A stretch of 64,000 nt of DNA from Owenia fusiformis (Eukaryota; Annelida; Polychaeta; Sabellida; Oweniidae): assembly GCA_903813345.2 (NCBI GenBank), contig CAIIXF020000006.1, positions 16,992,348-17,056,347 of the forward strand, given 5' to 3'. The translations under genes were made by a program, and so were the position numbers. Of this stretch, positions 6,622 through 63,277 are shown one piece after another (position 1 is the stretch's first letter; the number at the start of each line of letters is the position of its first letter). The notes under the pieces are model-generated. The model saw only the letters and a list, made by a program, of their open reading frames with translations. It ran no database searches and was not told the origin of the DNA.

Positions 6622-6993
6622 TACCCTTTGCATTCGTTTGACTTCACTTCTTAAAAGAGAGCTTCGTCTTCACTCTTTCAAACCAAAATAAACCTGTGAA
6701 CTCACCGCGCCAATCAGTGTTCGTCGGACAAATTTGACCGACATTCTATATATGGTCATTCCTTCTGACGTCATCGTTAAGCCCGGAATTGACCAATGAC
6801 ATGCGCATATTTAATTAGAACGCATTTGGCGTATGTTTCTCCAAGCTCGCTGATTGGTGGAAGAAAGGTCAGCGCGTAGGTCAAAAGTGATTTATTACTG
6901 TCACCGGTACCCGTCGTGGGGGCGGGGCTGCTAAACTGTAATATGGTCTCTACTAGGCAGAGTGTAGTTTAACTAGACTCTGCACGCAGGGTA
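6622..6993. mobile_element. MITE with 9-bp target duplication, copy 1 (Mutator-like)
   Basis: Ends TACCCTTTGCA and TGCACGCAGGGTA are imperfect inverted repeats. The flanks are a perfect 9-bp direct repeat, CAAGTAGAA (6613-6621 and 6994-7002). Nine-bp duplications are typical of Mutator-like elements. The 372-bp body is nearly identical to 56435-56813. It carries CCAAT at 6710 and 6793, ATTGG at 6853, TGACGTCA at 6766-6773 and a GGGGGCGGGGC box near 6918. There is no ORF. Confidence 0.8.
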
Positions 6994-14436: not shown

Positions 14437-15523
14437 CTTGCTTCAGGGCGAACCCCGTGTGTCTTTCCCTTCTTCTGATGGTCTTATCACAATCTTTATA
14501 TTTCCTTTAGCACTATCAATTGTCGAAAACAGAGTAAAAATGACGGTGTTTTAGGAATTTTAGTTCTTTTCCACATGTAGCAAAGCAAGCTACCTCCTAC
14601 CTAGAAATCGGACTAGCGGGGAAATTTTCTCATTGCATCCTCAGTTGGATCGTCTTGACTAACACTACTGACTGGGGTAATTTTATGAATCCGCGCAAAA
14701 GTCACTTTATGTTTTTGGTGCGAGATCAGCCGTAATCCGGTACGTTATCCATACTTTGAGGATTCCAAGATAATTATGAACATATATTCCACGTAATTAG
14801 GAACTTTTGTCATTAGGAAAATGGGTATATATTTACGAAATCGTATATAATGCGATCTAATTTCAGCAAGGTGCGAGCCGAATTACGCAGTACTATTTTC
14901 TAGAATTACGCCGGCTTAAGTCTAAATAAAACCTCAACACTGATTGGATGATATTAAATTCTACCACAAATAATAAGTGCCAATCCTTTCATTACTAAAT
15001 TTGTATCAATTAAAATATCATTGCGTATTGATTAACTACGTTCTTTCCAAGCAGTATGTTCTATAAAATACAAGATATTGTGCTAAAATATATCATTTTT
15101 TCCTTTTTCTTTCCCTTGTTTACATTTTTTCTTCAGCCAATCAAATTGCTTCTAATAAGGCCTAATAATAACAAAATTATCATCTTTTCTTGATCCGCGA
15201 TAATCTTTGAATGCTTGTCCAAAACATGGATGATGTTATAACTGGCAAGATACATCGATTTTTCGACGGTACGGCAATCAATAAATGCAGAATTGATCTA
15301 CGGCTTCCAACAAAGAGGTTTACACACGATTCACTGATGCGAGTTTTTCCACAATGACGTCAAGTAGCAATCTCCCAGAGCTTAGAACATCATCCGGGAT
15401 CCAAGGATAATCTTTTCTCTTATCCGCCATATTTGAGAATAACAAACCAAGATTCCGAGGCTAGATTTTTTTGAAAGGTGGGGGTTTACCCCCGTATTAA
15501 GACCCAAAGTGCAAACTATTAAA
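14437..15523. promoter_or_regulatory. head-to-head intergenic region between SNRNP70 and Kv1
   Basis: About 1.1 kb separates the two divergent start codons and must hold the SNRNP70 5'UTR and promoter. It may also hold Kv1 leader sequence. A TATAAAA-like stretch lies near 15063. No CpG-rich block or repeat was recognised. The promoter role is inferred from position only. Confidence 0.4.
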
Positions 15524-17086
15524 ATGGAAGCATGTATGGTCAGTGTAGATCAGGGGAACGGTCAACTTGGATATAATCAACACGCAAGACCTGGCAAAGG
15601 TAACCAAGGTAATATTCCTAATTCCAGGTCTTTTCCAAGGCTGATGGATGACCATGAAACTGTAGTGGAGGACCGGCATGTCACACAAGGAGACTTTGAA
15701 TGCTCGGAGCGTGTCATCATAAATGTAAGTGGTTTGCGTTTTGAAACTCAGCTGAAGACCCTCAACCAATTCCCTGACACGTTATTAGGCGATCCACAGA
15801 AACGAAACATGTACTATGATCCTTTACGTAATGAATACTTCTTTGATCGTAATCGCCCAAGTTTTGATGCTATCCTCTACTATTATCAAAGTGGGGGTCG
15901 TCTGAGAAGGCCTGTCAGTGTTCCAATCGATGTATTCTCAGAGGAAATAAAATTTTATGAACTTGGTGAAGTTGCTATTGAAAAATATAGGGATGATGAA
16001 GGATTTATCAAAGAGGAGGAAAAAATCTTACCAGAAAATGAATTTCAAAGAAAAATGTGGTTGCTGATGGAGTATCCTGAAAGCTCAATGGGAGCCCGTG
16101 TTATAGCAATCATATCAGTTTGTGTAATCTTGCTGTCTATTGTTATATTTTGCTTAGAAACATTACCAGAATTTAAGCATTATCGTGTGGTAAATGCAAC
16201 AGAAAATAGCACTAATTCAAATAAGCTCCCGATAGAGGAAGATGATATTCCAAAATTCACTGAGCCATTCTTTATCATAGAGACTGGATGTATTGTTTGG
16301 TTCACATCAGAACTCCTGTTACGCTTTGCTTCATGCCCAATTAAATTAGACTTCTTCAAAAACATGATGAATTGCATCGACATCGTGGCTATCATCCCAT
16401 ACTTCATTACCCTCGGCACTGTCATCGCAGATGAGAGTAAGTCAAATAACCAAGCCATGTCTTTAGCAATCCTTCGTGTCATAAGACTGGTGCGTGTGTT
16501 TAGAATTTTCAAATTATCAAGACATTCTAAAGGATTACAAATTTTAGGCCAGACATTGAAAGCTAGCATGCGAGAGCTTGGTCTACTAATTTTCTTCTTA
16601 TTCATTGGAGTTATACTCTTCTCTAGTGCTGTTTATTTCGCTGAGGCAGATTCCGACAAGTCACACTTCAAGTCAATCCCTGATGCATTCTGGTGGGCAG
16701 TAGTTACTATGACAACTGTTGGTTATGGGGACATGCGACCTATTGGCGTGTGGGGCAAGCTTGTAGGTTCATTATGCGCCATTGCTGGTGTCTTAACCAT
16801 AGCTTTACCAGTGCCTGTCATTGTCTCTAACTTCAACTACTTTTACCACAGGGAAACGGATTGTGAGGAAAAAGACAAAACTTATCAGCATGTACAAAGT
16901 TGTCCGAATTTTCCTCGCCCAGGCAAGAAAGGTTCTCTTGCTAGTGATAGTTGCTCAGACATCATGGAAATTGAGGAGGGAATACCTCTGACTGACAGTG
17001 AAAGGACTAAATTAAACCATGCAGGTGCAGTAAAGAATAACCCTGGCAACAACCCAAATAACATCAGTATAGAGACTGACGTATGA
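15524..17086 (+). CDS. Kv1: Shaker-type (Kv1) voltage-gated potassium channel
   Basis: Complete 520-residue alpha subunit in one coding exon. I chose ATG 15524 (context AAAATGG, good Kozak); an in-frame stop lies at 15440. The T1 tetramerisation domain spans about 61-155 ([20 protein letters not shown]). S1 is about 191-214, S2 249-269 and S3 280-300. S4 carries R318, R321, R324, R327, K330 and R333 at three-residue spacing. S5 is about 352-374, the selectivity filter TVGYGD is 398-403, and S6 is 413-439 with the PVP gating bend at 429-431. The C-terminus ETDV is the Kv1 PDZ-ligand for PSD-95/Dlg-type scaffolds. N-glycosylation sequons N224-A-T and N228-S-T lie in the S1-S2 loop. R405 occupies the external TEA-binding position (Shaker T449), as in Kv1.5, predicting low TEA sensitivity. 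There is no obvious N-type inactivation ball. Tetramers in the plasma membrane would carry delayed-rectifier K+ current in excitable cells. Confidence 0.98.
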
Positions 17087-20932: not shown

Positions 20933-21090
20933 AAGTAAAACCTGTCCTAGAGAACACCTCTTCTAGTGAACACCTGTGTTCTGTGAACACCACTTCAAGA
21001 CACATTTCTGTATAAAATCACCTCTCTGTAGTGAACACCTTACTACAGTGAACGCTTTTTATGGATCCATAGATGTTCACTACAGGTGTA
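20933..21090. mobile_element. pogo/Tigger-like MITE, copy 4
   Basis: Begins AGTAAAACCTGTCC with AGTGAACACCT blocks inside. The right end (TTCACTACAGGTGTA) is diverged. Same family as 3166-3333. Confidence 0.55.
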
Positions 21091-25892: not shown

Positions 25893-26159
25893 CAGGGCTG
25901 TCAACTTGGGACCACCTAATATGAGTGACTTACAAATGTTGGACACCCTAAGTCCAAATCTGAACACTTTTGTCCAAATTTTGAACACCTTTGGCCAACT
26001 TTTAAACACCTTTGGCCAAAGTTTGAGCACCTTTGCCAAACTTTGATCACCTCAAATTTTTCGTGACATTTTCTGTCACGCAAAGAAAACTGGCGTGACT
26101 TCAAATTCTTCAGCAAATGCATGAGAAATACGCAAATTGCGGGACAGTTGACAGGCCTG
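25893..26159. mobile_element. CAGGCCTGTCAACT MITE, reverse-oriented copy (6-bp TSD)
   Basis: Ends CAGGGCTGTCAACTT and AGTTGACAGGCCTG. Flanks TAATCT (25887-25892) and TAATTT (26160-26165) match at five of six bases. The interior contains the GTGACATTTTCTGTCACGC block and GGACACC/GAACACC repeats shared, in the other orientation, with 60283-60791 and 62831-63277. Confidence 0.7.
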
Positions 26160-26239
26160 TAATTTATACATTGGGAATGAATAATTGATAATAAATCAGA
26201 CCATGTGAAAATGATAACCACCAATTAATATAATCTCAT

Positions 26240-35633: not shown

Positions 35634-35822
35634 CAGGCCCATAGCCAGGGAGATTCAGGGGGCTCAAGCGAACATACCTTTGGCCACAAATTCTTTCAAA
35701 ATCATGCAGTTTTTCACCATCCAAAGTGATTTTGACTATTTTTGGGCCAAAGTTGTCCAAAGTGAACCTCCCTGGAATTTTTTAAAAAGTGAACCTCCCC
35801 CTTGGCATTCTTGCAGCCAGGG
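35634..35822. mobile_element. CAGGCCCGTAGCC MITE, diverged copy
   Basis: Starts CAGGCCCATAGCCAGGGAG and contains AATTCTTTCAAAATCATGCA and AGTTTTTCA as in 54005-54156, then AAAGTGAACCTCC twice. The right terminus is degenerate (GCAGCCAGGG). Confidence 0.6.
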
Positions 35823-36686: not shown

Positions 36687-36859
36687 TACCCTTTGCACTC
36701 ATTTGACTTCACTTCTTAAAAGAGAGCTTCATCTTCATTCTTTCAGTTTACATAAAATATCTTAACTCATAGAACCATTCAGAGTTTGTTGTCGAAATAT
36801 GGACGACTTTCTATATATGGTAATAATCATAATCATAACTAGACTCTGTGCGCAGGGTC
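36687..36859. mobile_element. 9-bp-TSD MITE, internally deleted copy 3
   Basis: The left end TACCCTTTGCACTC and GACTTCACTTCTTAAAAGAG match copies 1 and 2. The middle is deleted or replaced, and the right end CTAGACTCTGTGCGCAGGGT is retained. Flanks GTAGAAAAA and GTAGAACCT share the first six of nine bases, consistent with an older insertion. Confidence 0.7.
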
Positions 36860-45260: not shown

Positions 45261-46696
45261 TTTTTTCTTTTCTATTTAGAGTCCTAATGGACCATTTATT
45301 TTTATCAAACGAAACAGAAAATGTGGTGTTTTATTTATTTTTATTTATAAAAGTCTATATAATGCATTTGCATCGATACCCCTTCGGTCTAGCTGCTTAA
45401 TGCTGTCTAGATACACTCTTAGATAATTGATAAATTTGAAAAAGTAAGGTATTTCGCTTTCTAAAAATGATTTGTATATAATATATTTCACAATCAGTAT
45501 GCTGAAGCTTATTTAGTTTCTCTTCATTCTGGATGATACCTAATAAAATATTATTTTCAGTAACCTTTGATTCTTTATTAACTTTTTGTTTCCACCATTC
45601 AATAAATTGCTTCCATATATCTTTTGTTATTCTACTGTTCACGAGCATGTGCTTCATGGTATGGGCATGGGCATTTGTCCGTCTGTGTAATGTTCATCAT
45701 TTTTATTAACTTATTGTTGCATGTTAATGTATTTGTCAATATTACTGTACTTTGATTCTTTATTTACTTTTTGTTTCCACCATTCAATAAATTGCTTCCA
45801 TATATCTTTTGTTATTCTACTGTTCACGAGCATGTGCTTCATGGTATGGGCATGGGCATTTGTCCGTCTGTGTAATGTTCATCATTTTTATTAACTTATT
45901 GTTGCATGTTAATGTATTTGTCAATATTACTGGAAACTCCAAATTTTTGTAATAGTATTTCATTTCTGTTTCCTTTACATCATTTTCTTGAATCCATTTT
46001 CTCAAAGATGTAGGTTTTTCCACTTCTTTTTCAAGGATTTTTATTATATATTGTTTTACATGTCAATTGACTGGGAAGTGGTAATGTTTTAATGTGCATT
46101 TGTTTGTCAATCTGTTATTTTTAAGATTTTTCCATGTTTTGGGAATAGCGCTTAGTATACTCGCATATTTCAAAAAGTCTATATGAATGTTAAATTTTTG
46201 CTCCAGTTCTGTCTTAGATAAGAAGTTGTCATTTCTGTCTAAGATATCATGAATTTTAACAATACCTGCTTGATGCCATTTCTTGAAGTACAGCATTTTA
46301 TTATTGACTAAAATATTTACATCATGATGAGTTACTTCTGCCCATGTTTCTAGCATTGTCAAATAAAAATTTAGGAATTTCGTTATAATTTTGAAAATAC
46401 TTTATTTTTCATTTCTTCAATTTTCTTTGCGATATTCAATTTTGATTTATCATCTGCATCATAGGTAAATGTTATTCCTAGAGCTTTTACACTAGTTATT
46501 GATTTGATTCCATTTATATCTTGCTGTTTTTCCCGATCTCTTCCTATCCACATTATTCCAGTCTTTTCTTTGTTAATTTCTAGACCAGAACATTTTCCAA
46601 ATTTTTCAACTTAATTTAAAGCATTATTTGTTGACTCGTGATCGTTCAAAAAGATGGTTGTGTCATCAGCATACTGACAAAGTTTGACTTCACATT
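45261..46696 (-). mobile_element. 5'-truncated LINE (L1/Tx1-like), degenerate
   Basis: A 17-bp direct repeat TAATACTTACAAGGTAT flanks it at 45244-45260 and 46697-46713. Reading leftwards on the - strand, the start falls within reverse transcriptase: QYADDTTIFL contains the catalytic YADD, followed by SGLEINKEKTGIMWIG. Further on are KKWHQAGIVKIHDIL, SAIPKTWKN and a C-terminal region with DKCPCPY and FIEWWKQKV, as in L1/Tx1-type ORF2. Stop codons (for example after NNALN) and frameshifts break it. A T-rich run at the low-coordinate edge fits the 3' tail. Truncation at the 5' end plus a target duplication is the usual LINE insertion outcome. Confidence 0.85.
45565..45934. repeat. 185-bp tandem duplication inside the LINE
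   Basis: Two adjacent copies offset by 185 bp (45565-45749 and 45750-45934) are almost identical, for example across TTCCACCATTCAATAAATTG and GGTATGGGCATGGGCATTTG. The duplication follows or accompanies the insertion and adds a frameshift to the coding remnant. Confidence 0.85.
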
Positions 46697-52772: not shown

Positions 52773-52862
52773 GAGCTTCAAAGATATATCTAAAAGAGAT
52801 TATTTTAACCTGTTGCAACTTGATGATGTTAGAGAGTCTATGATAATTGTTATAAAGCCCCA
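52773..52862 (+). CDS. candidate exon whose 3' part seeds the 50-bp minisatellite
   Basis: Acceptor GTGATATTACAG ends at 52772. After the leading G the frame reads SFKDISKRDYFNLLQLDDVR, then ESMIIVIKPHYN, and is open to TGA 52891. The segment from CAACTTGATGAT onward is the first unit of the tandem array. The exon end is uncertain, with possible donors at GAT|GTTAGA or further right. It is phase-compatible with 52575-52606. Confidence 0.4.
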
Positions 52863-53376
52863 TTACAACTTGATGATGTCACAGAGTCTATGATAAGTGT
52901 TATAAATCCCTATTACAACTTGATGATGCACAGAGTCTATGATAATTGTTATATAGCCCCATTACAACTTGATGATATCAGAGTCTATGATAATTGTTAT
53001 AAAGCCCCATTACAACTTGATGATGCACAGAGTCTATGATAATTGTTATAAAGCACCATTACAACTTGATGATGCACAGAGTCTATGATAATTGTTATAA
53101 AGCACCATTACAACTTGATGATGTCACAGAGTCTATGATAATTGTTATAAAGCCCCATTACAACTTGATGATGTCACAGAGTCTATGATAATTGTAATAA
53201 AGCCCTATTATAACTTGATGATGTCACAGAGTCTATGATAATTGTTATAAAGCCCTATTACAACTTGATGATGTCACAGAGTCAATGATAATTGTTATAA
53301 AGCCCTATCACAACTTGATGATGTCACAGAGTCTTGGATAATTGTTAATTGCCCATCGCAACTGGATGATGTCACA
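52815..53376. repeat. 50-bp minisatellite, about 12 units
   Basis: Unit CAACTTGATGATGTCACAGA then GTCTATGATAATTGTTATAAAGCCCCATTA. Spacing is exactly 50 bp at 53111, 53161, 53211, 53261 and 53311; some left units lack three or four bases (GATGCACAGAG). End units are the most diverged. The first unit overlaps a candidate coding exon. Confidence 0.85.
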
Positions 53377-53560
53377 GAGTCTGTGACTTGTGATTAGTCT
53401 TATGTATATTATTTACTTAACCTATGACACGCAAAATCCATGTATTTATTCCGATGAATTATAATTCAGAGTAAGAGAGCTCGGTACCTAGAGACCTAGA
53501 TAAATTGTTTCAATGTATCAAAAACTGATTCCTAAAAATGTCATGTGAATGTGAGACTTT

Positions 53561-54733
53561 GTAATGATAGTGGTGGTGTTCAAATGGGGAGCCATTTGTG
53601 TTAATTTAGCTCAGAGTCTAATTAAAATTTCGATATTTCATGCATGTGTCAATCACTTAGGAGACATTTGGGGAAAAGTTTTTTTTTACGTATACCAATA
53701 GTTTTACTTTATCAGAACCTCTACTCCTTTGGGGTAATAATCAATTTTACCAGATGAATAAAGACTTATGGCAAGTCTCTATTTACGTCAGTGTGTCCAT
53801 TAGGATTCCTTTATAATAGAACAAAATCCATAAGCTTGCAAGCCACTAGGCTTATCTACTGACCATTTTGATACAATATTAATCATCCATGGTCTGGTGA
53901 TTAGGGATTTATTTTGGCTCAATATGCTGCAAGTGACTTACTTTAAAAATTAGTACCCTGCTATCTTGACAGCAACAGGCTAGTTAGGAATATCCCTTTA
54001 ATGACAGGCCCGTAGCCAGGGGGTTCAATGGGTTCGAGCTCCCCCCCCCATCCCTGGCCAAAAATTCTTTCAAAATCATGCAGTTTTTCATTTTGGGCAT
54101 TTTTGAACAAAATTGTCAAAAGTGAACCCCCTTGGCAAATCCTGGCTACGGGCCTGAATGAGGCAATTCAAATTCCCATAAAGGGTCTAAAGTTTCATTT
54201 CAGATAATTGATTATTATGATTTTATCATATGTAATAGCCAGAGGATGATGTGACTTGTCAAATGGGATCAGGATTCTCTGCAACCATTTAATAAACATT
54301 GGCTGTTTATAAACATTGTCTGTCCCAGTGACTTTGGGATGATAAACCAATGTGAAAACTTATTCTTTTATCATACCATGTACAAGATTATTTCTAACAG
54401 GGGAATACTATGGGATATAAACAACCATCATTTTCCAGGAAGTTGTGTCATGTGGGAGGGCTTGAGCAGGCGCAAACAAATGCATTCATGTTTATGCTAT
54501 TCTTGTATTATTGGCTATTAATGGACTTTTTGATCATAACAACAATCCTAATTGAATATTACAGAAAATACATCCTTATTTGGTGTGATGGGCTTTTTAC
54601 ATCGAATTCCCAATTGTTCTTACGAGAAATCAAATCAAAATAAAATGAAAAGTAAATTATACATTTTCCTGTTTTCCATGTCATTTGATGATAAAGTCAA
54701 AATATAGAATGGTGCTTTATGTAATCAGTATAG
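53561..54733. repeat. source segment A, duplicated at 58369-59537
   Basis: The 1173-bp block from GTAATGATAGTGGTGGTG to ATGTAATCAGTATAG is repeated at 58369-59537 with only scattered base changes, a deletion of about 16 bp near the start and a 17-bp tandem gain near 59100. It includes the MITE at 54005. The small ORFs within are not genes. Confidence 0.85.
54005..54156. mobile_element. CAGGCCCGTAGCC MITE with 5-bp TSD
   Basis: Perfect-looking ends CAGGCCCGTAGCCAGG and CCTGGCTACGGGCCTG are flanked by AATGA (54000-54004 and 54157-54161). The 152-bp body has AATTCTTTCAAAATCATGCA and a C run. CAG termini with a 5-bp duplication suggest the hAT5-type group (inference). Confidence 0.75.
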
Positions 54734-54771
54734 CAATGAATTAGTATTTCTTGCATTTCTCTGCCATACAG

Positions 54772-54858
54772 CCTAAAACACACCAGAATTTCCAAAAAAA
54801 CTCAAAACAAAGGAATTTCTTCTTATATAAACTCTAAGATTTTGTGTTTAGTATTCAG
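54772..54858 (+). CDS. candidate internal exon, unknown gene
   Basis: Strong acceptor TTTCTTGCATTTCTCTGCCATACAG and donor TTCAG|GTATGG. The frame LKHTRISKKTQNKGISSYIN then SKILCLVF is open across it, starting and ending in phase 2. The candidate at 56120 continues the frame. Lys-rich; no family recognised. Confidence 0.35.
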
Positions 54859-56119
54859 GTATGGAATTTGTGTTTCAAAAATCTGCTAGGTCCTCTATTC
54901 TCTAATAGTCTGCCTTATGGATTTTCCATTTGAAATAATAGGGTGATTGATTTCACAGCTCTTGTCAGTATCTGTCACTGGTGTATTGAATCGTAATTCT
55001 GCTGATGGGTAAATGAAGAAATGGTGACACATACACAGTGTGCTATTCTAAAAATTGTTTCTAAGAAGTTTTATTTAGAAAATATTGATTGATATATTTA
55101 TGGCCACAGGGCCTCCCACATTTGAGTGGTATCAAGTCTTATGAAACTCATGCTTAAACACATTCTTACAACGCTATTCTTTAATAACTCATCACAAATA
55201 TGTCTGCACTATTTCATTTGTGGGTGTCTTTACATGATTTTGAGGGTGGACGTCGTGGCTGTTAATTTAATCCTTTAATATTTTATGTATTTTAAACCAA
55301 TTCTTCGTCTTGAAGCATGGGTGCTTTGATATGTTATTCAGAGGTTTAAAGACATGAGGGGAATTGAAGTATTGATAAACCGCTTATATCAGACAATCCT
55401 CAAGATTGTATAATTGTATACTCCTTAATTAGACCTTGTCTTGCACTTAAGAAGCCCATAGAAAATATCAGTGGCTGATTTTTACTTTCAGAAGTTAACA
55501 AATACAAAAAAAATTGAGTGGGAAGAAATTGTTTTATTATTAGAGATCTCTGACAGGACATCTTAAAGTGACAATTTAGATATCTTAAAATGACATGACA
55601 TTTGAAATGGTATGACATCAGTATAATCTCACTGACATAATTGAATAAAGTCTGGTGATTATATTGTATCATTGGGCCTCCAGTGACCAATAATATAGTC
55701 GGAAAGTGTCACTGACCCATCCTTAGAGATAATATAGACAAATGGATTCATCTCCATTGCATTATAGACCAAAAAAGAATATATTTTTACAAATGTCCCT
55801 CTTGAGAGTTTTGTTTCGTCATTCCATTAAGGTCATTGATCTTATAATGAATGTCATTGTAATAATAATATTGCGTCCCTTGTCTTAGGTCAAAATCCTA
55901 TATAGGCTCCATCGACAATTAAAATGTTGGTTATTTTATTTTATAACTATATCCAGTCATAGATGTAGGTTATCAGTCCTATATGGCCTAGCATCAACTC
56001 AACTGTTGGTAGACCATCATTGAATAAACTTACGAGTTATTTAGATCAGAAATAGAATAATTTGCAAATAAATATCTGGGTGATGAATGTTGAATTTTTG
56101 ATTTGTCATCACATTTCAG
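54859..56119. other. AT-rich, presumed intron
   Basis: An acceptor CGTCCCTTGTCTTAG at about 55896 opens about 45 codons (VKILYRLHRQLKCW...) without a good donor. A 96-codon - strand ORF at 55400-55690 has no supporting signal. Confidence 0.3.
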
Positions 56120-56159
56120 GCAAGTTTCTTATGACAAAATGGTTGATAACATAGCATGA
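56120..56159 (+). CDS. candidate terminal exon
   Basis: The acceptor TTTGTCATCACATTTCAG is good. After one base the frame reads QVSYDKMVDNIA and stops at TGA 56157. The start phase matches the exon at 54772-54858. AATAAA near 56301 is a plausible polyadenylation signal about 145 bp after the stop. Confidence 0.3.
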
Positions 56160-56434
56160 TTTATTTAGGGTCATCAACCTAGTCTTACAATCAATGTTGT
56201 TGACTCTTGACTTTTTTGTACTGGTAGAAAATAGAATAGCTTTAACAACATATATCTATTTTGGGACTTTTAACTGTCATCACATATTGTTTAGAATCTT
56301 ATAATAAATGCTTCCCACTGGCAATTCTCCAATCGCAAGATGAAAATGTCCTTGATCTGTAATGTAGATACATAAATAGAGATAATCTATAGATGTATTG
56401 ATGGTTAAGAAACACTCTTTTGTTCATCGTTTTC

Positions 56435-56813
56435 TACCCTTTGCATTCGTTTGACTTCACTTCTTAAAAGAGAGCTTCGTCTTCACTCTTTCAAACTAAA
56501 ATAAACCTGTGAACTCACCGCGCCAATCAGTGTTCGTCGGCCAAAATTGACCGACGTTCTATATATGGTCATTCCTTCTGACGTCATCGTTGAGCCCGGA
56601 ATTGACCAATGACATGCGCATATTTAATTAAACGCATTTGGCGTATGTTTCTTCAAGCTCGCTGATTGGTGGAAGAAAGGTCAGCGCGTAGGTCAAAAGT
56701 TATTTATTACACAAACTGTCACCAGTACCCGTCGTGGGGGCGGGGCTACTAAACTGTAATATGGTCTCTACTAGGCAGAGTGTAGTTTATATCTAGACTC
56801 TGCACGCAGGGTA
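56435..56813. mobile_element. 9-bp-TSD MITE, copy 2 (Mutator-like)
   Basis: Ends TACCCTTTGCA and TGCACGCAGGGTA. A perfect 9-bp direct repeat ATCGTTTTC lies at 56426-56434 and 56814-56822. The body is almost identical to 6622-6993, including TGACGTCATCG, two CCAAT, one ATTGG and GGGGGCGGGGC. Confidence 0.85.
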
Positions 56814-56981
56814 ATCGTTTTCATATTTAGTTTACAATAAATATTTAGAAATAATCACTCACCTCCTTTGATTAGTCTATAATTGATTTTTTTTATATTT
56901 TATAGAATTTTTATTCACTTGTAGGTGGATGACCCCTATCTCATACGTCACTTTAATATGACATTAATACCCTTTGAAATA

Positions 56982-57146
56982 CAGTAAAACCTATGCGCAG
57001 TGCACACCTATGGAGCCACAAATATTTGTTCACTTTAGGTGGGTATTCACTTAGAGAGGCAGTCGATGGAGTATGTCCTGACAAAATTTGTTCACTAGAT
57101 GCAGGTGTTCACTAAAGAGAGGTATTCACTAAGACAAGTTTTACTG
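56982..57146. mobile_element. pogo/Tigger-like MITE, copy at 57 kb
   Basis: CAGTAAAACCTATGCG and ACAAGTTTTACTG are inverted. The left flank is TA and the right flank is TT in place of TA. Contains TTCACTTAGAGAGG and TTCACTAAAGAGAGG units. Its right two thirds were copied into the composite insertion at 59535. Confidence 0.65.
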
Positions 57147-58344
57147 TTATATTGTGATTTCACTTCTTCAAAAGAGAGCTTCATCAACATCGCCAATACT
57201 CAGGAGAGAGCAATAAATACAGTTCACATTCTCAACAGTCCCTGTCTTAATCTCATATGCGCCATTCAAAGGTTTGCGTGAGACTCTCCCACGTGAGGGC
57301 ATTGCTCACAGGGTGGAGAAATTGACTCATTAGGTTGCTCCCAGGGAAGAAAATTTTGACAACACAATTTTTTTTGGAAAATCCCAACCCGTTCTCATGT
57401 GGCCTTTGCTAGAACCATCATGGCAAATACATTACGGACATTTTTTAATGGAAAATGTATTTAGAAAACCATTGGTTATTTTATGTGGGTGCCAGCCCAC
57501 ATATTTACTTTTTTCCTTCCTGATTCTATTATTTTATTTTTCATTTTGCTTTTGAAAGTGCGATCACCAATCTGCCATAATGCCAAGCAGTTTTTTATGT
57601 GGGATTTAGCTTTCAAGATAGAGTGATATTGTGAAGAACCTGCCAAGCATAAAATTAATACAGATAGGATTTAATGTTTAGAGTTGCATCGATTTAATAC
57701 TAAGGTCCCTTAATTGATTCCAGTGATCCTTAAAGTGAGCTGTATTTGAATAGGTTTATAGGTGAGTGACCTCTAAAAAGTCTAAATCGTACCTTTCTCT
57801 GATTTATATAGTACATATGCATACTTTGTGGTAGTTGTATGCCAAAAGATAATGGAATGGTTATCCTTCATGGAAAAATATGCCTTTATGCCTTTTCAGG
57901 CTTTTATTTTTGCTTTATTTTGAAGAAATCATGTCATCAAAATATAAGGAATCACCACTAAGCACACCAAATGGTGCCATTTTTGTTTCCAGGGTTTTAC
58001 AACACCACAAGACTGGCTGTGGCAGCTGCTTGAAACACTATTAAACACAAGTTATGATTATAGTTTAGTTTGAAGAAATATGAGGTTATTATTACATTCT
58101 CTGAAGGTTAGAGAACCTTTGTGAAATAAGCTACAACATATGTTGAAGACTTATCTATACGAGACTGATCAAATATTCATCCAGCAAAATGTTTTATCAA
58201 AGTAATATCTCTTTTCCTTGAATATCACATATTTCAAGTCCTTTTAATTTATATTGAGTAGAAAAATTGATTTTTTATTGATTAAGGTCAGTTTTAGGTT
58301 TGAAGGTCATGTTCAGATGTCTTAACCAAGGTTAATGACATGTG
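57147..58344. other. AT-rich, no gene called
   Basis: 57052-57357 is the second source segment (C) of the composite insertion. No exon supported. Confidence 0.35.
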
Positions 58345-58368
58345 TTTATAATGTTCAGTGTGTGTAGC

Positions 58369-59838
58369 GTAATGATAGTGGTGGTGTTTGTGTTAATTTA
58401 GCTCAGAGTCTACTTAAAATTTCGATATTTCATGCATGTGTCAATCACTTAGGAGACATTTGGGGAAAAGTTTTTTACGTATACCAATAGTTTTACTTTA
58501 TCAGAACCTCTACTCCTTTGGGGTAATAATCAATTTTACCAGATGAATAAAGACTTATGGCAAGTCTCTATTTACGTCAGTGTGTCCATTAGGATTCCTT
58601 TATAATAGAACAAAATCCATAAGCTTGCAAGCCACTAGGCTTATCTACTGACCATTTTGATACAATATTAATCACCCATGGTCTGGTGATTAGGGATTTA
58701 TTTTGGCTCAATATGCTGCAAGTGACTTACTTTAAAAATTAGTACCCTGCTATCTTGACAGCAACAGGCTAGTTAGGAATATCCCTTTAATGACAGGCCC
58801 ATAGCCAGGGGGTTCAATGGGTTCGAGCTCCCCCCCCATCCCTGGCCAAAAATTCTTTCAAAATCATGCAGTTTTTCATTTTGGGCATTTTTGAACAAAA
58901 TTGTCAAAAGTGAACCCCCTTGGCAAATCCTGGCTACGGGCCTGAATGAGGCAATTAAAATTCCCATAAAGGGTCTAAAGTTTCATTTCAGATAATTGAT
59001 TATTATGATTTTATCATATGTAATAGCCAGAGGATGATGTGACTTGTCAAATGGGATCAGGATTCTCTGCAACCATTTAATAAACATTGGCTGTTTATAA
59101 ACATCGGCTGTTTATAAACATCGTCTGTCCCAGTGACTTTAGGATGATAAACCAATGTGAAAACTTATTCCTTTATCATACCATGTACAAGATCATTTCT
59201 AACAGGGGAATACTATGGGATATAAACAACCATCATTTCCAGGAAGTTGCGTCATGTGGGAGGGCTTGAGCAGGCGCATACAAATGGATTTATGTTTATG
59301 TTATTCTTGTATTATTGGCTATTAATGGACTTTTTGATCATAACAACAATCCTAATTGAATATTATAGAAAATACATCCTTATTTGGTGTGATGGGCTTT
59401 TTACATTGAATTCCCAATTGTTCTTACGAGAAATCAAATAAAAATAAAATGAAAAGTAAATTATATATTTTCCTGTTTTCCATGTCATTTGATGATATAG
59501 TCAAAATATAGAATGATGCTTTATGTAATCAGTATAGAGAGGCAGTCGATGGAGTATGTCCTGACAAAATTTGTTCACTAGATGCAGGTGTTCACTAAAG
59601 AGAGGTATTCACTAAGACAAGTTTTACTGTTATATTGTGATTTCACTTCTTCAAAAGAGAGCTTCATCAACATCGCCAATACTCAGGAGAGAGCAATAAA
59701 TACAGTTCACATTCTCAACAGTCCCTGTCTTAATCTCATATGCGCCATTCAAAGGTTTGCGTGAGACTCTCCCACGTGAGGGCATTGCTCACAGGGTGGA
59801 GATATTGACTCATTAGGTTGCTCCCAGGGAAGAAAATT
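58369..59838. repeat. composite templated insertion (copy of A joined to copy of C)
   Basis: 58369-59537 is a near-identical copy of 53561-54733. At a shared TAG it switches to a copy of 57052-57357 that runs to 59840. The whole is flanked by a 26-bp direct repeat, TTTATAATGTTCAGTGTGTG then TAGCGT, at 58345-58370 and 59839-59864. The MITE copy at 58794-58944 came along inside. No transposon end is found at the outer junctions. Confidence 0.85.
58794..58944. mobile_element. CAGGCCCGTAGCC MITE, secondarily duplicated copy
   Basis: Identical in layout to 54005-54156, including AATGA flanks, with one fewer C in the internal run. It arrived by duplication of segment A, not by its own transposition. 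Confidence 0.75.
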
Positions 59839-60119
59839 TTTATAATGTTCAGTGTGTGTAGCGTTTGGAAACTTATAACTTATTTTAAAGAATGATTTAT
59901 CTGTAGACAGACTGTCCATTGTGAAAATATTACTATGTGTATGTGATTTATGAATCAAACTTCAAAAATATTAATGTTTGGGAGATAATTAGAATTTCAT
60001 GTTAAAGATTGGTTATTTGTGAATGTCATAGGTTCAATGAATCTTAACACTTAATAGATCATTTTGAAGGTTAAAACATCAGAATATTTTGTATCCCTCA
60101 TATACCTACTGTACCTTTA

Positions 60120-60565
60120 CAGTGATCTCTACAGGAATTCTTCTCAAATTCTCATTATCACAATTTAGATCAAAATTTGTTCAAAATATACCCATTTTTC
60201 ATGATTTTTCTCATTTTCAAATGGGTGCAAATGGATTTTAAGGTGGGTGCAAGCCTATTTTCAAAATCTCAGGTGGGTGTTACAGGCCTGTCAACTGTCC
60301 CGCAACTTGCGTATTTGTCACGCATTTGCTGAAGAATTTGAAGTCACGCCAATTATTTTTGCGTGACAGAAAATGTCACGCAAATACGCATTTTACCTGG
60401 TAATTGTCAAGCAAAAATATTTCTGTAGAAACATTTCTAAAAAAGATCGTATACACAGCAAAAATACGAACGACGGAAAAAAATGTACGCATTTCGTTCG
60501 GACTTTTCACGCGAATTACGTATATGTCACGCATTCCGTTCAAAATTTTTCCTACCTACCCACCA

Positions 60566-60597
<32 letters not shown>

Positions 60598-60835
60598 ATT
60601 TGATGGATGAATGTTTGAAACGCGAGCGTAGCGAGCGCGAAAAATTTGACAAGATGTAATAAAATTTAAACCAAGGTGTTCAAAATTTGGATCAAGGTGT
60701 TCAGATTTGAACCAAGGTGTCCACATTTTGAGGGGAGGTGTTCAACATTTCCAAGTCACTCATGTTAGGTGTTCCCAAGTTGACAGGCCTGGTGTTATGG
60801 CATGCCCATTTGCTTTAATGCTGGGGAGATCACTG
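60120..60835. mobile_element. CAGTGATCTCC hAT-like element, interrupted by a second MITE
   Basis: Ends CAGTGATCTCTACAG and CTGGGGAGATCACTG with a CTTTA 5-bp duplication (60115-60119 and 60836-60840). Its body matches 9455-9630 in inverse orientation. A different MITE (60283-60791) is inserted inside. Confidence 0.75.
60283..60791. mobile_element. CAGGCCTGTCAACT MITE with 6-bp TSD, nested
   Basis: Ends CAGGCCTGTCAACTGTCCCG and AAGTTGACAGGCCTG. The exact 6-bp duplication GTGTTA lies at 60277-60282 and 60792-60797. It contains GTGACAGAAAATGTCACGC, a C run of about 30 (about 60568-60597), GCGAGCGTAGCGAGCGCG and AAGGTGTTCA/AAGGTGTCCA units. Six-bp duplication with a CAG end fits the hAT6-type group (inference). 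The ORFs ending in poly-Pro are artefacts of the C run. Confidence 0.8.
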
Positions 60836-62830: not shown

Positions 62831-63277
62831 CAGGCCTGTCAACTGTCCCGCAATTTGCGTATTTGTCACGCATTTGCTGAAGAATTTGAAGTCACGCCAG
62901 TTATTTTTGCGTGACAGAAAATGTCACGCAAATACGCATTTTACCTGGTAATTGTCAAGCAAAAATATTTCTGTACGCATTTCGTTCGGACTTTTCACGC
63001 GAATTACGTATATGTCACGCATTCCGTTCGAAATTTTTCGTACCTACCCCCCCCCCCCCCCCCCCCCCCCCCGTTGATGGATGTTTGAAATGCGAGCGTA
63101 GCGAGCGCGAAAAATTTGAGGTGTTCAACATTTGACAAGATGTAATAAAATTTAAACCAAGGTGTTCAAAATTTGGATCAAGGTGTCCAGATTTGGACCA
63201 AGGTGTCCACATTTTGAGGGGAGGTGTTCAACATTTCCAAGTCACTCATGTTAGGTGTTCCCAAGTTGACAGGCCTG
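62831..63277. mobile_element. CAGGCCTGTCAACT MITE with 6-bp TSD, second full copy
   Basis: Same ends as 60283-60791. Exact duplication TATCTG lies at 62825-62830 and 63278-63283. It has a C run of about 23 (63049-63071) and the same GTGACAGAAAATGTCACGC and GCGAGCGTAGCGAGCGCG blocks, with a 59-60 bp internal deletion relative to the other copy. Confidence 0.8.

Follow-up and report, generated by a model that had tools for sequence, protein, structure and literature searches.

A two-donor chimeric insertion between 26-bp direct repeats in Owenia fusiformis, with a probable origin in break repair by local copying

Serial template switching of the MMBIR/FoSTeS type typically produces large copy-number changes. 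The closest described relatives of the locus reported here are the repair-mediated duplications of the human genome, of which 824 out of 1,136, in the available text of Pace et al. 2009 (PMC2671141), lie no more than 5 kb from their donor. The same text counts 20 two-donor chimeras, five of them with donors within 3.5 kb of each other, and shows one whose donors match over 3 nt where they meet; a target duplication is listed for 6 of the 39 proximal cases with inspected joins (stated size range 4-21 nt), and the insert maxima are 619 bp for proximal and 3,424 bp for distant donors. The model presented there has the two 3' ends of a break extended on different templates, after which the new strands anneal to each other. 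As far as that text goes, the survey concerned vertebrates and its pipeline took in only insertions inside annotated repeats. Breaks with overlapping 3' ends are also known experimentally to give short tandem duplications (PMC8355091), formed, in the portion of that report available, by fill-in and end joining with overhangs of at least 43 nt.

Here, an insert of this general kind is described in a 64-kb window, the whole stretch of Owenia fusiformis DNA that was analysed (G+C 34%, zero Ns). As in the proximal duplications of the available text of Pace et al. 2009, both donors are within 5 kb of the insertion and are joined by a few bases, with microhomology at the joins and neither poly(A) nor transposon structure at the ends; a target duplication, which a minority of their cases have, is present. 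It differs in its host, an invertebrate where that survey dealt with vertebrates, in the length of the insert (1,468 bp, longer than the human proximal cases with their 619-bp maximum) and in the duplication (24-26 bp, outside the 4-21 nt given there), and these two excesses count against reading the locus as a repair product. An overlap of about 26 nt, as break repair would imply here, is shorter than the overhangs of PMC8355091. Class 2 templated sequence insertion polymorphisms, as presented in the part of PMC5110952 available, share the copied patch, the microhomology and the presumed break, but have distant donor loci and no target duplication, whereas here the donors are local and a duplication is present. 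The templated insertions of BRCA-deficient cancers (PMC10482687) also place an ectopic segment between duplicated target copies; in the available text of that study they come from tumours, are mostly long-range and have duplicated segments of 100 bp to 100 kb.

Insert, donors and joins

The mosaic was confirmed by self-comparison of the window using blastn, with more than 1.4 kb aligned and E-values of 0.0 and 1.6e-156, which rules out chance similarity. A composite of about 1.47 kb from two nearby segments, proposed by a sequence-only reading, was thereby borne out at 1,468 bp, with the boundaries given in Table 1. The copy of donor A differed from its source by 19 substitutions and five indels (16, 3, 1, 17 and 1 nt), and the copy of donor C by 1 substitution. 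Donor A starts 4.8 kb and donor C ends 1.0 kb upstream of the insertion, and A, C and the 26-mer follow one another at the insert just as they do in the donor region, with the same orientation. Besides one other full copy of each part of the insert, the window contained short, partial repeat matches: for donor A, 131 nt aligned at 71% with positions 35634-35775, and for donor C, seven other places matched over 30-57 nt. No third place at which A is joined to C was found within the 64-kb window, and the 21-base A/C junction had 0 exact matches in viral_contigs and genome_contigs, which consist of viral and prokaryote contigs and so say little on this point.

Table 1. Positions of the insert, its donors and associated features in the 64-kb window
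Feature	Position	Strand	Remarks
Donor A	53561-54733	+	Aligned with copy 58369-59537; 1,133/1,190 alignment columns identical
16 nt of donor A absent from copy	53579-53594	+	Alignment gap; in a small hairpin (7-bp stem, 4-nt loop)
Small inverted-repeat element within donor A	54005-54156	.	16-bp ends; AATGA on both sides
Small repeat element across left edge of donor C	56981-57147	.	10-bp inverted ends ACAGTAAAAC; only the right part in the copy
Donor C	57052-57357	+	Aligned with copy 59535-59840; 305/306 identical
26-bp duplication, left copy	58345-58370	+	Identical to right copy; final GT shared with start of donor A
Chimeric insert (1,468 bp)	58371-59838	+	Copy of A followed directly by C
Extra 17-nt unit in copy	59089-59105	+	Short tandem repeat; about 2.9 units in copy, about 1.9 in A
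TAG at A/C join	59535-59537	+	Present in both donors; 3-bp microhomology
26-bp duplication, right copy	59839-59864	+	Identical to left copy; initial TT shared with end of donor C

Base-level alignment agreed with the earlier placing of the joins at a GT on the left and a TAG in the middle. Microhomology at the three joins amounted to 2 bp (GT, left), 3 bp (TAG, middle) and 2 bp (TT, right), with no filler; on the right, donor C ends in TTTT, the right 26-mer starts with TTT and the composite has five Ts, giving an overlap of two. The 26-bp direct repeat that had been suggested as the boundary of the insert also held: the two 26-mers match perfectly and no further exact copy was found on either strand of the window. 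As the TT overlap of the right join lies inside the 26-mer, 24 of its 26 bp can be assigned to the target without ambiguity. When joins were placed at random in 53000-60500, the probability that all three would have at least 2 bp was 0.006 and that of a sum of at least 7 bp was 0.026. Microhomology at all three joins is thus modestly unusual, which is suggestive and is no proof.

Direction of copying and pattern of divergence

At its left edge, donor C breaks off within a small repeat element that runs on uninterrupted in the donor region. A relative of this element was found at 20934-21081 on the opposite strand (71% identity), and the alignment with it crosses the donor C edge. The 10-bp inverted ends are weak when taken alone (19 of 2,000 random pairs scored as high), while the donor sequence to the left of the edge, compared alone with the relative, gave a score of 39, a value that none of 1,956 stretches drawn at random from the window attained. 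Since the edge truncates an element that is unbroken in the donor and whose relative aligns across that edge, the copy is derived and the donor is older. The reverse order, with the copy as ancestor and the donor derived from it, was rejected on the same ground; nor, as read from the sequence, does the A/C join represent an ancestral arrangement that was later interrupted in the donor. The small element within donor A, whose 16-bp ends were equalled by 0 of 2,000 random pairs, lies wholly inside the donor and was a passive passenger in the copy.

The copy differed from its donors at 20 of 1,455 ungapped sites (1.37%). These differences were patchy, with 4/720 (0.56%) in the first part of A, 15/432 (3.47%) in 54301-54733 and 1/303 (0.33%) in C, and clustering as extreme was seen in 21 of 20,000 shuffles, for a window size that was picked after viewing the data. 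The low divergence had been taken to mean that the insertion is recent, which is loosely supported; given the patchiness, a single recent date does not simply follow. The cluster could stem from later gene conversion, from use of a template on another haplotype or from error-prone synthesis. The extra 17-nt unit lies in the same stretch as the 15 clustered substitutions, and may be ordinary slippage. That the substitutions and the gain of this unit, both located before the template switch, together form a mutation shower from low-fidelity repair synthesis is a very doubtful reading; if it were true, the scar would record the path of the polymerase together with its errors. Strand-biased mutation in the divergent stretch was also considered and was dropped, as neither the changed source sites there (7 C versus 2 G, p = 0.09) nor the full set of 13 transitions (C/T versus G/A, 10 to 3, p = 0.09) showed a significant bias.

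The 16-nt gap sits 18 nt inside the left join, and a fold of 56 nt that includes the hairpin gave -8.7 kcal/mol under RNA parameters. The missing nucleotides could have been skipped in synthesis or lost afterwards.

Origin of the insert

The locus is probably a repair-mediated local duplication, in which one break-repair event, by SDSA or serial template switching, copied two upstream donors. This reading is favoured by the exact two-donor mosaic with microhomology of 2, 3 and 2 bp, by the absence of the mobile-element, poly(A), splice and endonuclease features that were looked for, by the truncation of C through an element unbroken in the donor, by the location of both donors less than 5 kb upstream, as in the proximal duplications of the available text of PMC2671141, and by the experimental precedent for short duplications at overlapping 3' ends (PMC8355091). 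We infer a break with overhangs, primed from one or from both ends and repaired in a single event. A double-strand break at the left 26-mer would have left ends with an overlap of about 26 nt. From its terminal GT, the left 3' end would have primed synthesis on donor A, some 4.8 kb upstream, and been extended by about 1.17 kb, after which synthesis would have shifted to donor C at the common TAG. Alternatively to such a switch, the right 3' end may have copied C in the other direction, with the new strands annealing at TAG. The product would have been closed at the common TT.

A one-ended series of template switches, as in MMBIR/FoSTeS, yields the same sequence as priming from both ends. The locus resembles MMBIR/FoSTeS in its apparent serial switches with microhomology, local and on the same strand, and is unlike typical cases in that its product is a small closed insertion. 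The two-ended model in the available text of PMC2671141 fits the locus if the left end copied A and the right end C, meeting at TAG, and under that model the 26-bp duplication means that the ends overlapped by about 26 nt. Fill-in of staggered ends, to which the duplication had earlier been attributed, is one route to it; the 26-bp repeat would equally result if the last switch of template came down 24-26 bp behind the break. In the available text of a Drosophila survey (PMC4056370), such models are described as essentially impossible to tell apart by their breakpoints. The same survey reports little support for replication-type templated insertion, which counts against the repair reading. So does the clustering of 15 of the 20 substitutions in 432 of the 1,455 sites, as single uniform copying predicts none.

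Break repair with copying from two nearby donors, as proposed earlier, is the best-supported reading. The collinear order of the donors makes tandem duplication a real rival. Retention of order and orientation, which would have about one chance in eight of arising if both were free, counts against the repair reading and is exactly what is predicted if a 4,810-bp unit (53561-58370) was duplicated in tandem and the second unit later underwent two deletions, one removing the 2,318 bp that separate A from C and the other the 987 bp from the end of C to the final 26 bp. In that case the 26-bp direct repeat would be the surviving end of the second unit, with no target duplication involved. The window contains another little-diverged simple tandem duplication, at 45565-45932 (two 185-bp units, 99% identity), which is in keeping with such an origin. 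This explanation is unlikely and is ranked second, because it takes three events where repair takes one, and because the second deletion has to stop in the final 26 bp of a 1,013-bp span of the unit (2.6%); in addition, a remnant of the intervening 2,318 bp was sought at the copy and no match was found.

An assembly artefact, in which two haplotypes, one of them without both intervening segments, were concatenated, or a chimeric read was included, is quite unlikely. In its favour, differences that average 1.4% and are unevenly spread would be compatible with two alleles of an outbred animal. Such an artefact would, however, need a haplotype carrying both deletions as well as a join with an overlap of only 2 bp, in a window without Ns, and a haplotype of that kind would have a half-element at its A/C join, so that the join would be derived and not ancestral.

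Retrotransposition of a spliced or chimeric RNA by LINE machinery, or movement of a non-autonomous transposon, could account for a flanking duplication of 24-26 bp and for the partly repetitive nature of both donors, and is nevertheless extremely improbable. In agreement with the earlier view that transposon ends are lacking, terminal inverted repeats at the insert ends gave a score of 10, against a chance mean of 12.6 and a 95th percentile of 17 (500 random pairs), and a DNA transposon was rejected on this result. A-runs of more than 4 were looked for at both insert 3' ends and none was found, the roughly 60 bases next to each insert end contained no polyadenylation signal, and the LINE nick motif TTTT/A was absent at both target nick points; a LINE retrocopy or class 1 TSIP, for which poly(A) and a TTTT/A nick site would be expected, was accordingly rejected. 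Intron loss or a spliced template was also rejected, as no GT-AG or GC-AG borders were present on either strand around the missing 2,318 bp at any of the 4 equivalent A/C joins. The absence of a third A-to-C junction from the window likewise stands against a mobile origin.

Scars of this type have already been described in vertebrate genomes, and the locus is a clean, readable example of what is probably local copying in break repair. One case alone changes little; such scars, if found at scale, would show in what way non-coding DNA grows and small transposons and their fragments spread without transposase.

Other features of the window

A minisatellite of 50-bp units (11.6 copies) at 52816-53386 ends 174 bp before donor A, and is possibly a fragile spot near that donor. 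The window looks animal, on the basis of two features. The first, at 15443-17086, is an open frame encoding a potassium channel of the Shaker/Kv1 type (Pfam Ion_trans and BTB_2), whose best solved relative was Shaker (720 bits; Kv1.2, 682 bits), and the second is a full-length match to the Rfam potassium channel RNA editing signal at 16718-16831 within this frame (99.5 bits, gathering threshold 51).

Further repeats were observed elsewhere in the window. One family is present at 6622-6993, 36687-36824 and 56435-56813, with the first and third copies 95% identical and 50 kb apart. Downstream of the insert, at 60283-60791 and 62831-63277, lie two copies of a small inverted-repeat element whose 14-bp ends (CAGGCCTGTCAACT) are perfect, each copy flanked by its own 6-bp direct repeat (GTGTTA at one, TATCTG at the other). 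Each copy contains a long C run (31 and 26 by TRF), and partial relatives of the element lie near 25893-26162 on the opposite strand.
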